Notes under the pieces: model-generated
Databases searched by the model: none
What the model was told of the DNA's origin: nothing
What the model saw: the letters and a program-made list of their open reading frames with translations, nothing else
Shown here: positions 4,715-9,120 of the stretch, one piece after another
Layout of the letters: each line of letters opens with the position of its first letter
Numbering within the stretch: the stretch's first letter is position 1
Program-made: the position numbers and the translations under genes
Assembly: GCA_019351955.1 (NCBI GenBank)
Contig: JABBOE010000006.1
Location: 1 to 56,684, forward strand
Length of the DNA: 56,684 bases
DNA from: Pseudomonadota bacterium
Lineage (GTDB): Bacteria > Pseudomonadota > Gammaproteobacteria > Burkholderiales > Burkholderiaceae_C
Reading direction: 5' to 3'

Positions 4715-6460
4715 ATGTCTACAGTCATTGCACCCTCACCAACGCAGGTCCGCGGACCCTCGCAGCTCGCCGGGCTCGCGCATGCGCTAGTGCAGTCAGA
4801 CCAGTTGCAGCGCCCCGTAGCCGAACAGATTCAAAGGCGAGCGATTGAGTCCCGGGCGAGCTTCATCGCAACATTGCTCGCAAGCGAATTGATGAGCGCC
4901 TCCGATCTGGCGCACTGGGTCAGCAAGACTTTTGCCCTGCCCATGCTGGATCTGAACGCGTTTGATCCATCGCGTGTTCCCGCAGGCGCGATCGATGCGA
5001 AAATCGTCAAGGCCTACAAGGTTCTTCCCCTGATCAAACGCGGGAACAAACTGGTGGTAGCTACCGCCGACCCCGCGGATCACGAGGCCGAGGACAAGAT
5101 CAAATTCCAGTCGCAGTCGGCTGTCGACCTGGTGGTCGTCGAGTATGACAAGCTTGCGCGCTGGATCGACCAGAGCACCCAGTCTGCTACCAGCCAGATC
5201 AGCGCGCTTATCGGCGACGACTTCGATCTCGCCGATTTGGACGATGGCAGCCCCGATGTCGCCGCAGAAAAGGATCTTGGGGCCGACGTCGACGACGCGC
5301 CTGTCGTCCGTTTTTTGCAGAAAATGTTGGTCGATGCAATCAATATGCGCGCATCTGACCTTCATTTTGAACCGTTTGAGAATTTTTACCGCATCCGCTT
5401 TCGTGTTGACGGGGAGTTGCGCGAAATCGCGCAGCCGCCTGTGGCGATCAAGGAAAAGCTTGCGTCGCGCATCAAGGTGATTTCGCGTCTGGACATCGCG
5501 GAGCGGCGTGTACCACAGGACGGGCGCATGAAACTGCGCTTCGGCCCCGACCGCGCCATCGACTTCCGTGTGAGCACGCTGCCCACCATCCATGGCGAAA
5601 AAATCGTCATCCGGATTTTGGACTCCACGCTGGCCAAGATGGGGATCGAATCGCTGGGCTACGAACCGGAAGAGAAGGAGCGAGTCCTGCGCGCGATCAA
5701 GCGACCTTACGGCATGGTTCTGGTCACCGGACCCACGGGCAGCGGCAAGACCGTATCGCTTTATTCGTACCTGAACCTTCTCAACCAACCAGGGGTCAAC
5801 ATCTCGACTGCGGAGGACCCGGCCGAAATCAACCTGCCCGGTGTCAACCAGGTCAATGTGAACGAAAAAGCCGGGTTGAATTTTGCGACCGCGCTGCGCG
5901 CGTTCCTGCGGCAAGATCCAGACATCATCATGGTGGGGGAGATCCGCGACCTGGAAACAGCCGATATTTCGATCAAGGCGGCCCAGACAGGCCACATGGT
6001 GTTCTCCACCGTGCACACGAATGATGCGCCCACCACGCTGACTCGCCTCATGAACATGGGTGTGCCGGCGTTCAACATCGCCTCCAGCGTCATTCTCATC
6101 ACGGCCCAGCGCTTGGCGCGCAAGCTATGTCCTCAATGCAAAGCCCTGATTGACATTCCCAATGCGGCGCTGCTCGAGGCCGGTTTCAAGGAGAGCGAAC
6201 TGGATGGATCCTGGAAGCCCTATAAGCCTGGCAAATGCAACGCGTGCAACGGCAGCGGATACAAGGGCCGCCTGGGCATCTACCAGGCCATGCCCATCAG
6301 CGAGGAAATCCAGCGCATCATCCTCAACCACGGAACCGCGTTGGACATTGCCGAGCAGGCCAAGCGGGAAGGCGTGCGTACTCTGCGCGAATCGGGTCTC
6401 GTCAAGGTCAAACAGGGACTGACCTCGCTTGAAGAAGTGTTGGCCGTCACCAACGAATAG
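4715..6460 (+). CDS. pilB: Type IV pilus assembly ATPase PilB
   Basis: A 581-residue GspE/PilB-family hexameric ATPase that powers pilin polymerisation at the inner membrane. The N-terminal MshEN-type domain (about 1-150) is followed by the N2 domain. The Walker A box GPTGSGKT is at residues 339-346, the Walker B region is DPDIIMVGEIRD, and the His box is AQTGHMVFSTVHTNDAP. The zinc tetracysteine motif is CPQC (about residue 472) plus CNACNGSGYKGR. All catalytic elements are intact and the length is normal (E. coli HofB/PilB relatives 460-580). In related genomes pilB-pilC-pilD is an operon; here pilC survives only as a remnant in the following 250 bases. PilB would need its platform protein supplied from elsewhere. 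Confidence 0.96.
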   Translation: MSTVIAPSPTQVRGPSQLAGLAHALVQSDQLQRPVAEQIQRRAIESRASFIATLLASELMSASDLAHWVSKTFALPMLDLNAFDPSRVPAGAIDAKIVKAYKVLPLIKRGNKLVVATADPADHEAEDKIKFQSQSAVDLVVVEYDKLARWIDQSTQSATSQISALIGDDFDLADLDDGSPDVAAEKDLGADVDDAPVVRFLQKMLVDAINMRASDLHFEPFENFYRIRFRVDGELREIAQPPVAIKEKLASRIKVISRLDIAERRVPQDGRMKLRFGPDRAIDFRVSTLPTIHGEKIVIRILDSTLAKMGIESLGYEPEEKERVLRAIKRPYGMVLVTGPTGSGKTVSLYSYLNLLNQPGVNISTAEDPAEINLPGVNQVNVNEKAGLNFATALRAFLRQDPDIIMVGEIRDLETADISIKAAQTGHMVFSTVHTNDAPTTLTRLMNMGVPAFNIASSVILITAQRLARKLCPQCKALIDIPNAALLEAGFKESELDGSWKPYKPGKCNACNGSGYKGRLGIYQAMPISEEIQRIILNHGTALDIAEQAKREGVRTLRESGLVKVKQGLTSLEEVLAVTNE

Positions 6461-6485
6461 GCGATTGGCTTAAACCGGAACGTTG

Positions 6486-6707
6486 ATGGCAACAACTGCA
6501 GTGCGGATCCCTGCCGCCTTCTTGATTGCATGCAAAGGACAAGAAGCACGTGGCAGACTGCCACGCGACTGGATAGGCGGGGCTGGCGTCGAGAAGGTAG
6601 GAAACGCCTCGCTCAAGCAGGGTTTGAACGCCGTCTGCATTGCGACTTCATCCGCAAATTCGCAATCATCGTGCCTGCACCATTTTTCAGCAGCCATCGG
6701 GCCATAG
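6486..6707 (+). pseudogene. pilC: Remnant of pilC (type IV pilus platform protein)
   Basis: Between pilB and pilD, where a ~1.2 kb pilC is expected, there is only a 73-codon frame starting MATTAVRIP. Residues 12-27 (FLIACKGQEARGRLPR) resemble the PilC N-terminal pattern F-x-W-x-G-x-D-x-x-G-x-x-x-R. Residues 40-52 (NASLKQGLNAVCI) resemble the following A-x-L-x-x-Q-G-I-x-V-x-x-I pattern, but key residues such as the tryptophan are gone. The last residues (CLHHFSAAIGP) may be the out-of-frame end of PilC (YLPIF...IG). I infer a large internal deletion plus point decay. The three transmembrane segments of PilC are missing. The ATG at 6486 has GGAA upstream, as expected for the old pilC start. Confidence 0.6.
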
Positions 6708-6714
6708 CTTAGCC

Positions 6715-7584
6715 ATGCAGCACATCTTCATGGGGGTTCCCCCCGATTTCTGGGTTTTCGCCGCTGGGCTTGCCGGTCTCACCGTGGGCAGCTTTCTGAA
6801 CGTCGTGATCTACCGGCTTCCAGTGATGCTGGAGACCGCCTGGCAGCGTGACGCCCAAGCCACCCTGCAACCGAAGCTCGCACCATCCACAAGCGAGCCC
6901 TTTAACCTTTTGCATCCGCATTCACGCTGCGGCCACTGCGGACACGCGATCCGCTGGTGGGAGAACGTTCCTGTCCTGAGCTGGATCCTGCTGCGGGCGC
7001 GCTGCTCGGGTTGTGGCACGCACATCGCGGCACGTTATCCGTTGGTGGAACTGCTCTCCGGCATCCTGAGTGCCTCGGTGATTGCGCTGCATGGATTGTC
7101 ACCTTGGTCCCTGGGGCTGGTGATGCTCCTGTGGGCACTGATTGCCCTGGCTTTCATCGATTACGACACCACGCTCTTGCCGGACAGCATCACGCTGCCG
7201 CTCCTGTGGCTGGGCCTGCTGCTGCATGCCAGTCTGGATCCCGGCTTTCTGCCGCAAGCCGTATGGGGGGCTGCCGTCGGTTATGCCAGCCTATGGACCG
7301 TGTATCAGGCGTTTAAGCTGCTCACGGGCAAGGAAGGCATGGGCTACGGCGACTTCAAGCTCTTCGCGGCGCTTGGCGCCTGGTTCGGCGTGGTCGCATT
7401 GCTGCCTATCATTTTGCTGTCGGCTGTCGCCGGCGCCGTCATTGGCATTGCGCTGCAGTTCAGCGGTCTGGCCGAGCGCGGCAAACCCATCCCCTTTGGT
7501 CCGTTCCTAGCAACGGCCGGTCTGATCATGCTGTTGCTCGGCCCCGCACAACTCATCGCCTGGGTGCTGCCCGGTGGCGCCTGA
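6715..7584 (+). CDS. pilD: Prepilin peptidase / N-methyltransferase PilD
   Basis: A 289-residue, polytopic inner-membrane aspartic protease that cleaves the leader of type IV prepilins and type II secretion pseudopilins and N-methylates the new N-terminus. The N-terminal signature is GLTVGSFLNVVIYRLP. Two CxxC pairs (CGHC and CSGC, about residues 74-104) form the cytoplasmic zinc site. The two catalytic aspartates lie in IDYDTTLLPD and GMGYGDFKL (GxGD). About seven to eight hydrophobic segments follow. The ATG at 6715 gives the usual short N-terminus before the first membrane segment. An in-frame start at 6640 would lie within the pilC remnant. Intact PilD can still serve other prepilin-like substrates. 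Confidence 0.95.
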   Translation: MQHIFMGVPPDFWVFAAGLAGLTVGSFLNVVIYRLPVMLETAWQRDAQATLQPKLAPSTSEPFNLLHPHSRCGHCGHAIRWWENVPVLSWILLRARCSGCGTHIAARYPLVELLSGILSASVIALHGLSPWSLGLVMLLWALIALAFIDYDTTLLPDSITLPLLWLGLLLHASLDPGFLPQAVWGAAVGYASLWTVYQAFKLLTGKEGMGYGDFKLFAALGAWFGVVALLPIILLSAVAGAVIGIALQFSGLAERGKPIPFGPFLATAGLIMLLLGPAQLIAWVLPGGA

Positions 7585-7596
7585 TCGGGTACAGGC

Positions 7597-8235
7597 ATGG
7601 TGGCGTCGTCCCCGGCACTGACCCCGCGTCGTTTCACAGTCGGTCTCACAGGAGGCATCGGGTCGGGCAAATCTGCCGTGGCCGAGCTACTTGCTGAAAT
7701 GGGAGCCGCGGTGTTGGATGCTGACCGCATCTCGCATGAACTCACCGCCCCTGGCGGCGCCGCCATCGAGCCTCTGCGGGCAGCGTTTGGTGATGCCATG
7801 ATTACTGCACGGGGTGCACTTGACCGTGCCCGTATGCGCGCGGCCGTATTCGCCGATCCGGCGTTACGCCACCAACTTGAGTCCATCCTCCACCCCCGCG
7901 TGGGCGAGGTCCTGCGCGAACGGGCAGCCACGGTGAAGGGCAACTACCTCGTTCTCGTCATTCCGCTCCTGGTCGAGGGTCTCGCGCGCTGGCGCGCTTA
8001 CCTGTGCCGCATCGCTGTGGTCGACTGTCCCGAGGCGCTTCAAATCGCGCGCGTGATGCACCGCTCGGGGCTCAGCGCCGAAGATGTGCGTGCCATCATG
8101 GCAACCCAGGCCACGCGCGAAGCCCGTCGTCGCGCTGCCGACGACCTGATCGATAACAGTACAAGCCTCGACGCATTGCGGTCGCGCACGCGCGCGCTTC
8201 ATGCGCAGTATCTGGAGATGGCCCGCGCAATTTGA
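7597..8235 (+). CDS. coaE: Dephospho-CoA kinase
   Basis: A 212-residue cytoplasmic P-loop kinase catalysing the last step of coenzyme A synthesis, phosphorylation of the ribose 3'-hydroxyl of dephospho-CoA. The Walker A motif GLTGGIGSGKS begins near residue 11, followed by the conserved DADRISHEL (substrate-binding aspartate). The lid/base region shows LVVIP-type LVLVIPLLVEG and CPEALQIARVMHRSG. It starts 12 bases after pilD. The pilD-coaE-zapD-yacG order is standard in betaproteobacteria and gammaproteobacteria. Length is typical (about 200). Confidence 0.95.
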   Translation: MVASSPALTPRRFTVGLTGGIGSGKSAVAELLAEMGAAVLDADRISHELTAPGGAAIEPLRAAFGDAMITARGALDRARMRAAVFADPALRHQLESILHPRVGEVLRERAATVKGNYLVLVIPLLVEGLARWRAYLCRIAVVDCPEALQIARVMHRSGLSAEDVRAIMATQATREARRRAADDLIDNSTSLDALRSRTRALHAQYLEMARAI

Positions 8236-8367: not shown

Positions 8368-9120
8368 GTGATCCTTTACGAATATCCCCTGAGCGAACGC
8401 GTTCGCACCCTGTTGCGCCTCGAATACCTGTTTCGCCGGGTGAATTTTCTGTTGCAGCGTGCCCACCCGTTTGATCATCATTTCGCCCTACTCTCGATGT
8501 TCGAGATCATGGACGTCGCCACGCGTCAGGACCTCAAATCCGATCTGTTGAAGGATCTGGAGCGTCAACGCCAGCAATTCCTTGCCTTTCGCGGCAATTC
8601 AGCCGTGTCAGAGCATGCCCTGGACGAGGTGCTGGCGGAAATTGATGCTGCATTTCAAGGCTTGAGCCAGCAGCTCGGCAAACCTGGCCAGCCTCTGCTC
8701 GAGAACGAGTGGCTGATGGCCATCCGCAGCCGCGCCAGCATCCCGGGGGGCACCTGTGAATTCGACTTGCCTGCCTACTATGCATGGCAGCATCTGCCGG
8801 AAGACCAGCGACGGTTGGACATGGCGCGCTGGATGGAGGTTTTCAGCCCGCTGGCGATGACCGTTGAATTGCTTCTGCGCCTCCTTCGTGATTCCGGGAC
8901 GCCCCACAAGACCCTGGCTGCGGGCGGCACGTACCAACAGAATCTGGCGGGGCGCACGTACCAGCTCATGCGCTTGCGGGTGGACGGAGCGCTGGGCGTG
9001 GTGCCCGAGACCACGGGCCATCGCCTCATGGTGTCGATACGCTACATGCGGCCTGACGCTGATTGGAAGCTGAGGCCCGTGACAACGGACGTCGCCTTTG
9101 AAATTGCCCTGTGTCCATGA
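8368..9120 (+). CDS. zapD: Cell division protein ZapD
   Basis: A 250-residue protein of the ZapD (YacF, DUF1342) family, a cytoplasmic factor that cross-links FtsZ filaments and stabilises the Z-ring. Family landmarks are ILYEYPLSERVRTLLRLEYLF at the start (shown in part), FDLPAYYAWQHLP near the middle and GTYQQNL near the C-terminus. I chose the GTG at 8368 because known ZapD proteins begin at this ILYEYP motif and are 245-255 residues. A longer frame from a TTG at 8275 adds 31 residues without family support. No strong ribosome site precedes either start, so the N-terminus is not settled. The stop overlaps the yacG start. Confidence 0.88.
   Translation: MILYEYPLSERVRTLLRLEYLFRRVNFLLQRAHPFDHHFALLSMFEIMDVATRQDLKSDLLKDLERQRQQFLAFRGNSAVSEHALDEVLAEIDAAFQGLSQQLGKPGQPLLENEWLMAIRSRASIPGGTCEFDLPAYYAWQHLPEDQRRLDMARWMEVFSPLAMTVELLLRLLRDSGTPHKTLAAGGTYQQNLAGRTYQLMRLRVDGALGVVPETTGHRLMVSIRYMRPDADWKLRPVTTDVAFEIALCP

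Follow-up and report, generated by a model that had tools for sequence, protein, structure and literature searches.

Displacement of one gene by another very probably explains the state of the type IV pilus locus in the DNA analyzed here (the window, a stretch of 56,684 nucleotides at its full length), where a core gene of the pilus machine, pilC, is reduced to a 254-base relic between intact pilB and pilD genes: the resident pilC would have been lost, and a divergent pilC situated in an exchangeable pilin island, whatever its source, would have taken over. We propose that the common ancestor of the window's own genome (G000) and of two congeners (G003 and G021) lost the resident gene through a deletion that removed about 1 kb net, and that the leftover has been decaying between its two neighbors ever since. 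The platform protein would now come from a strongly diverged, full-length PilC whose gene lies at the pilA locus, flanked by pilA and an operon of minor pilins. The features of the window locus are as follows, G006 being the nearest congener.

4715..6460, + strand: pilB, intact, encoding the type IV-A pilus extension ATPase of 581 amino acids (open reading frame; NCBIfam TIGR02538)
6461..6613, + strand: head of the pilC relic, degraded, spanning the old pilB-pilC junction and some 42 codons from the start of pilC (collinear with the G006 interval, 2-150)
6614..6714, + strand: tail of the pilC relic, maybe the last pilC codons to a stop at 6710-6712 (weak and mixed shuffle results; otherwise assigned from position)
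6715..7584, + strand: pilD, intact, encoding a prepilin peptidase of 289 amino acids (Pfam)
7597..8235, + strand: coaE, named by eye, next in the conserved order (open reading frame; 93.4% amino acid identity to G021)
8371..9120, + strand: zapD, named by eye, next in the conserved order (open reading frame with a listed start at TTG 8275; 98.4% amino acid identity to G021)

The two genes flanking the gap are whole, as the first-pass annotation of the window had stated. The pilB frame is full, and its product passes the PilB model TIGR02538 (803.8 bits against a cut-off of 675.65) and contains the Pfam domains T2SSE and MshEN; the pilD frame is likewise full, with both A24 domains above their cut-offs (A24_N_bact, 108.5 bits; Peptidase_A24, 92.8 bits) and no NCBIfam match at 0.001. 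Between G000 and G021, PilB is 97.8% and PilD 95.2% identical in amino acids. The pilB stop (TAG, 6458-6460) and the pilD start (ATG, 6715) leave a gap of 254 bases, 6461-6714.

That these bases are a remnant of pilC, as the annotation had proposed, is borne out by their head. Roughly the first 150 bases are collinear, in unshifted register, with the stretch that runs from the pilB stop into the start of pilC in G006, the G000 spacer being identical to it in 99 of 165 alignment columns. Anchored against G006, the G000 spacer scores 108.5 (94.5 for the head only), where the maximum of 30 dinucleotide shuffles is 43.5; G003 scores 104.5 (shuffle maximum 51.5) and G021 104.0 (shuffle maximum 42.5), and the local score of the head is 98.5 against a maximum of 66 in 500 shuffles. 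An nhmmer profile of the three spacers (G000, G003 and G021) matched the G006 interval at 2-150 with an E-value of 2.8e-6, and when 456 sequences were ranked with it (20 real intervals, 400 shuffles and 36 pieces of the window) the top eight were all real pilC intervals, the best decoy having an E-value of 1.4 and the weaker real intervals being intermixed with decoys below it. In the reverse search the signal was clear for G000 only (13.3 bits, against 5.4 for G021, 2.3 for G003 and 0.3 for the best decoy). The anchored, profile and shuffle comparisons all drew on 20 congener intervals, the 21st, of G007, being cut by a contig end. Alignment to related pilC genes, the check that the annotation had suggested, therefore gives similarity above chance. 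The reading frame that the annotation had likened to the PilC N-terminus is present (ATG at 6486; listed as an open reading frame from TTG 6483 to 6707) and contains FLIACKGQEARG and NASLKQGLNAVCI; against a PilC N-terminal profile this G000 frame ranked first of 2,718 sequences, with 18.9 bits (G021, 6.7; best decoy, 6.5), and it is the only one of the frames in which the N-terminus stands out at the protein level. Elsewhere in its own genome the spacer has only matches of 15-29 bases with E-values of 0.13 or worse.

The relic is real, yet the last PilC residues, which had been read as CLHHFSAAIG, are not demonstrable, the tests of the tail being weak and mixed. A PilC C-terminal profile placed no real frame among its best 12. 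When the tail was anchored at its end against G006, shuffled sequences scored as high in 6, 2 and 5 cases out of 60 (G000, G003 and G021, in that order throughout); against the congener interval L017 they did so in 2, 0 and 0 of 60, against L019 in none, and in unanchored local alignment in 18, 31 and 108 of 500. As judged from its sequence, then, 6461-6714 is a genuine pilC relic by its head only.

The spacers of the three species are mutually homologous (83-90% identical), that of G003 being 4 bases and that of G021 12 bases longer than that of G000. Over spacer positions 70-252 the species differ by 11.5-17%, and these differences show no bias among codon positions in any of the three species pairs (13/7/11, 6/8/7 and 8/7/12) when counted in a frame some 60 codons long (window 6530-6712). 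None of the three species interrupts this frame ahead of the stop that precedes pilD or has an indel inside it, and in G003 an open frame extends from an ATG to the same stop. Together with the 74-amino-acid frame that is open in G000, and with a relic that changes more slowly than the four-fold sites of pilB (11.5-17% against 22-26% among the three species), such features could be taken to mean that the 254 bases are a new small gene or RNA, or else a spacer unrelated to pilC. We consider this reading very improbable. An unrelated spacer is at odds with the collinear pilC similarity of the head, and the candidate small protein or RNA was rejected on several grounds: the codon-position bias expected of a gene is absent from the 60-codon frame, the frame picked out in the first-pass annotation is shifted in G003, owing to the 4 extra bases, and contains stops in G021, neither spacer frame has a Pfam match, and the predicted RNA fold does not go beyond that of shuffled sequences (z 0.95; 166 of 200 shuffles fold as well). 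The relic thus looks dead and free of coding constraint, in keeping with the large deletion and subsequent decay that had been suggested for it.

The distribution of the relic was read from a search with the PilB end in 60 genomes (G000, 27 congeners and 32 genomes from outside the genus), which returned 30 loci whose downstream sequence was then read, six of the 32 outside genomes being represented among them. Within the genus, pilC adjoins pilB in 22 of the 28 genomes, 21 of them by locus comparison (in G007 the contig ends inside pilC) and G020 by coordinates; three (G000, G003 and G021) carry the relic, and three cannot be judged, pilB lying at a contig end in G002, G004 giving no good pilB match and a partial ordinary PilC, and G025 giving neither. 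In the sister genus the order pilB-pilC-pilD-coaE is found in 5 of 5 genomes, coaE lying downstream of pilD in each, and in the six genomes of other families pilC follows pilB in all six loci read. The order pilB-pilC-pilD, which the annotation had taken as usual, is therefore indeed the usual one. In the pilB tree, in which the row of G011 is 41% filled, the three relic-bearing genomes form one clade (support 100/99) with G006 as its sister (100/100), and a single loss of pilC consequently suffices. It might be objected that G000 is a draft of 282 contigs, such that the junction could be an artefact of assembly or binning; this we regard as extremely improbable, the short junction being common to genomes of three species and, in G021, sharing a 2.78 Mb contig with the island, from which it is about 335 kb distant.

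Some congeners show peculiarities of their own in these genes. G002, which is 94% complete and has its pilB at a contig end, has neither a PilC-like nor a GspF-like match to the island PilC used as query. G027 has, besides the pilB-pilC pair on C109, another pilB on contig C57 (3985-5649) with a match to the N-terminal part of pilC (residues 9-154) behind it, which represents either a second system or a mixed bin. In G011, a genome that is 99% complete, pilB is split into two frames, one with an internal stop (contig C4, 1382587-1383740), through either a sequencing error or a broken gene.

Loss of type IV pili, which the first-pass annotation had entertained, was rejected as an explanation. 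The G000 genome retains pilM-N-O-P-Q in order on contig C82, where PilN was recognized by Pfam and the remaining genes by their order and size and by eye; it also has pilA with minor pilins on C224 and, to judge from its position, a PilT-like ATPase on C133. The annotation had alternatively supposed another PilC copy, perhaps of the GspF/TadC family, and another copy does exist: a full-length PilC is encoded on C224, and it is a highly diverged PilC that groups with those of the genus and sister genus, rather than GspF or TadC. Two proteins of the genome match PF00482, namely this one, with two T2SSF stretches (221.5 bits), and a protein on C137. The latter passes the GspF model (484.8 bits, cut-off 424), and GspF was accordingly discarded as a stand-in for PilC; the C224 protein falls below that cut-off (345 bits) and groups with the PilC proteins encoded beside pilB, which marks it as PilC rather than GspF. 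Neither the C224 protein nor the ordinary PilC of G006 reaches the cut-off of 700 in the two NCBIfam PilC models, which, judging by their names, relate to Myxococcus and Thermus. A GspF-similar protein (30-34% identical to the C224 PilC) occurs in 27 of the 28 genus genomes, the GspF model having been run on that of G000. The search of the rest of the genome that the annotation had advised for pilC, pilMNOPQ and pilA thus found them all. The C224 PilC is the only PilC found in the genome, and we infer that the PilB of the window drives it; PilB, PilM-P and this PilC would together form the base of the pilus, while the PilD of the window would process the pilins of the island.

On C224 the genes run pilA, pilC, pilE-like, fimT-like, pilV and pilW (pilV being assigned by similarity to G021 and by place, with no Pfam match). 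In G021 the order, with names given by eye and by order, is pilA1, a large pglL-like membrane protein, pilA2, pilC, pilE, fimT, pilV, pilW, pilX and pilY1. The sequence upstream of pilA and into its start is 86% identical between G000 and G021, and the genes neighboring the G021 island are found at the end of contig C148 of G000, the flank genes agreeing at 87-98% of amino acids; the two islands therefore seem to occupy the same site, although the place of C224 in the G000 draft, being that of a contig of only 5.9 kb, rests on similarity to G021. In G011 the pilA locus is bordered by the same genes, named by eye as AKR at one end and merR, acdh and an aminotransferase at the other, and contains pilin and pglL-like matches, with no pilC and no minor pilins inside it. 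Twelve minor pilin regions were fetched, and the 11 that belong to congeners other than G003 hold no pilC. The twelfth, of G003, has pilV, pilW, pilX and pilY1 that are 96-98% identical to those of G021 and lies on a contig that begins inside pilV; the stretch with the island pilC was not found in this 86% complete genome, which probably carries the copy as well. Across the 28 genus genomes the C224 type of PilC occurs in two (G000 and G021), the ordinary type in 23, neither type in three (G002, G003 and G025) and both together in none, though the lack of either type in a single genome is weak evidence, since several of the genomes are incomplete drafts. Between pilA and the island pilC on C224 lies a terminator-like hairpin (L043 1240-1272) with 13 pairs and a T-rich tail, one of 3 such sites against 2.5 expected in shuffles; if the hairpin is functional, the island pilC may be expressed below the level of pilA or from its own promoter. 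A sigma-54-like site with one mismatch, identical in G000 (L043 373-387) and G021 (L075 13682-13696), lies about 325-340 bases upstream of pilA, total counts of such sites being near chance.

The island PilC proteins of G000 and G021 share 88% identity; with the 21 full-length ordinary PilC proteins of the congeners, themselves 82-99% identical to one another, they share 61-64% (the comparison kept 132 rows and omitted the partial PilC of G007 and G004). A stem of 1.23 leads to the two, which join the genus and sister genus with 99/100 support. Topology tests leave their exact place broad: p-AU is 0.29-0.37 for branching within the genus or else beyond it and the sister genus combined, 0.299 for a clade with the G006 group, and 0.078 for one with the sister genus alone, in careful trees for which 20 rows (L109 included) were hand-picked from the 109 without a genus label and five rows represented the sister genus. 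Of 191 columns found near-invariant in a set of 46 other PilC rows from across the order, 30 are changed in both island copies, many of these conservatively, as against 0-8 in seven controls (hand-picked rows or pairs). Among 394 near-invariant PilB columns, defined from 21 rows of the genus and sister genus without that of G011, none is changed in all three relic-bearing genomes, and single rows (G006, G017 and G008) are changed at 6, 8 and 8; the figures of 30/191 and 0/394 are not strictly comparable, as the row sets and the rules (both copies as opposed to all three species) differ.

Between G000 and G021 the differences in the island pilC fall at 34, 20 and 167 first, second and third codon positions, and on this pattern the gene is under purifying selection. 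Its standing as the sole PilC found in the genome and this selection suggest that it performs the function of the old PilC. The four-fold sites point to a separate history, five genes around pilB having diverged by 0.12-0.23 between the two genomes, the island pilC by 0.45 and five pilin genes by 0.62-0.77 (from 39-145 sites each). From this excess, the island versions seem older than the split of G000 and G021, as exchange by recombination would give. The products of pilA and the minor pilin genes are 48-60% identical between G000 and G021 (L043 710-5788 against L075; L228). As a side observation, the island alleles are out of step with species distance, pilV, pilW, pilX and pilY1 being 96-98% identical between G003 and G021 and the island pilins 48-60% between G000 and G021.

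If displacement took place, a horizontal origin of the island pilC is likely, and two other origins have to be weighed against it. In the first, a duplicate of the resident pilC would have arrived at the pilA locus and evolved extremely fast once the original had been deleted. The closest relatives of the island PilC are indeed the PilC proteins of the genus and sister genus, the topology test leaves room for a clade with the G006 group, and a burst of change would fit the 30 altered near-invariant positions; it would, however, have to reconcile a stem of 1.23 with a pilB branch to the three species of only 0.033, a roughly hundredfold excess by rough scaling, and the synonymous excess of the island pilC (0.45 against about 0.2) is not expected from change at the protein level alone. 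We therefore hold this internal move to be rather unlikely. Distinctly less probable still is that the ancestor of the genus had two pilC genes, of which the three species kept the divergent one and the others the ordinary one. The tree position beside the genus and sister genus, with its long stem, would suit an old paralogue of this kind, but with no genome of the 28 retaining both types, many independent losses would be needed. As to a donor, samples of 399 genomes of the order and 399 of the family yielded nothing closer than the genus and sister genus among the matches listed, the best PilC beyond these being about 58-59% identical, again among the matches listed. One scan of genome contigs gave no confirmed locus; in a profile scan, the best 80 of 587 confirmed loci reached at most 62%, in genus members or near relatives.

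Under displacement from a horizontal source, the most likely order of events, favored with some reserve, is that an island with its own pilC recombined into the pilA locus, that its PilC worked with the old PilB, and that the resident pilC was lost thereafter. More tentatively, and with the balance of our judgment against it, PilC may have become uncoupled from the ATPase as part of an exchangeable cassette, one that would carry pilA, pilC and the minor pilins together from species to species and in which the pilins, not PilB, would shape PilC. This thought arises because PilB is ordinary at its near-invariant columns and both new PilC copies have broken with 30 of their 191.

Clusters of the kind pilA-pilB-pilC-pilD, with pilC near pilA, are familiar from Pseudomonas and Xanthomonas among others. 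There too pilC can adjoin pilA, whereas in the present case the pilC that accompanies pilA and the minor pilins is remote from pilB and pilD, which still enclose a dead one. Gene displacement is itself a known process, described in the part of PMC1274311 used here as xenologous gene displacement, in which the gain of a gene is followed by loss of the ancestral orthologue. The present case shares that sequence of gain and loss, and differs from the account in that part of PMC1274311 in that the ancestral relic is still visible, the gene encodes the core platform of the pilus, the newcomer sits in a pilin island, and its donor was not found in our searches. In Myxococcota the clusters of minor pilins and pilY1 differ between lineages, and a horizontal acquisition of PilY1.3 has been proposed, according to the portion of PMC13190605 drawn on here. 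In two families of that phylum, as the same portion reports, the major pil cluster contains the minor pilins as well as pilC, and the company of pilC and minor pilins therefore has a precedent (PMC13190605); that portion contains no displacement of a platform gene. Literature searches confined to open-access full texts turned up no earlier description of pilC displacement that left a relic.

The case is of interest in that a core gene of the pilus machine seems to have been caught in displacement with the old gene still visible. It offers a natural test of which surfaces of PilC must match PilB and which the pilins, PilB being nearly unchanged and PilC altered at 30/191. It also indicates that the absence of pilC from a pilBCD cluster does not imply the absence of pili. 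Elsewhere in the window, near the contig end, a frame of 161 amino acids at 150-635 has, by eye, an arylsulfatase-like start and a hydroxypyruvate isomerase-like end, and would be another relic of fusion or deletion.
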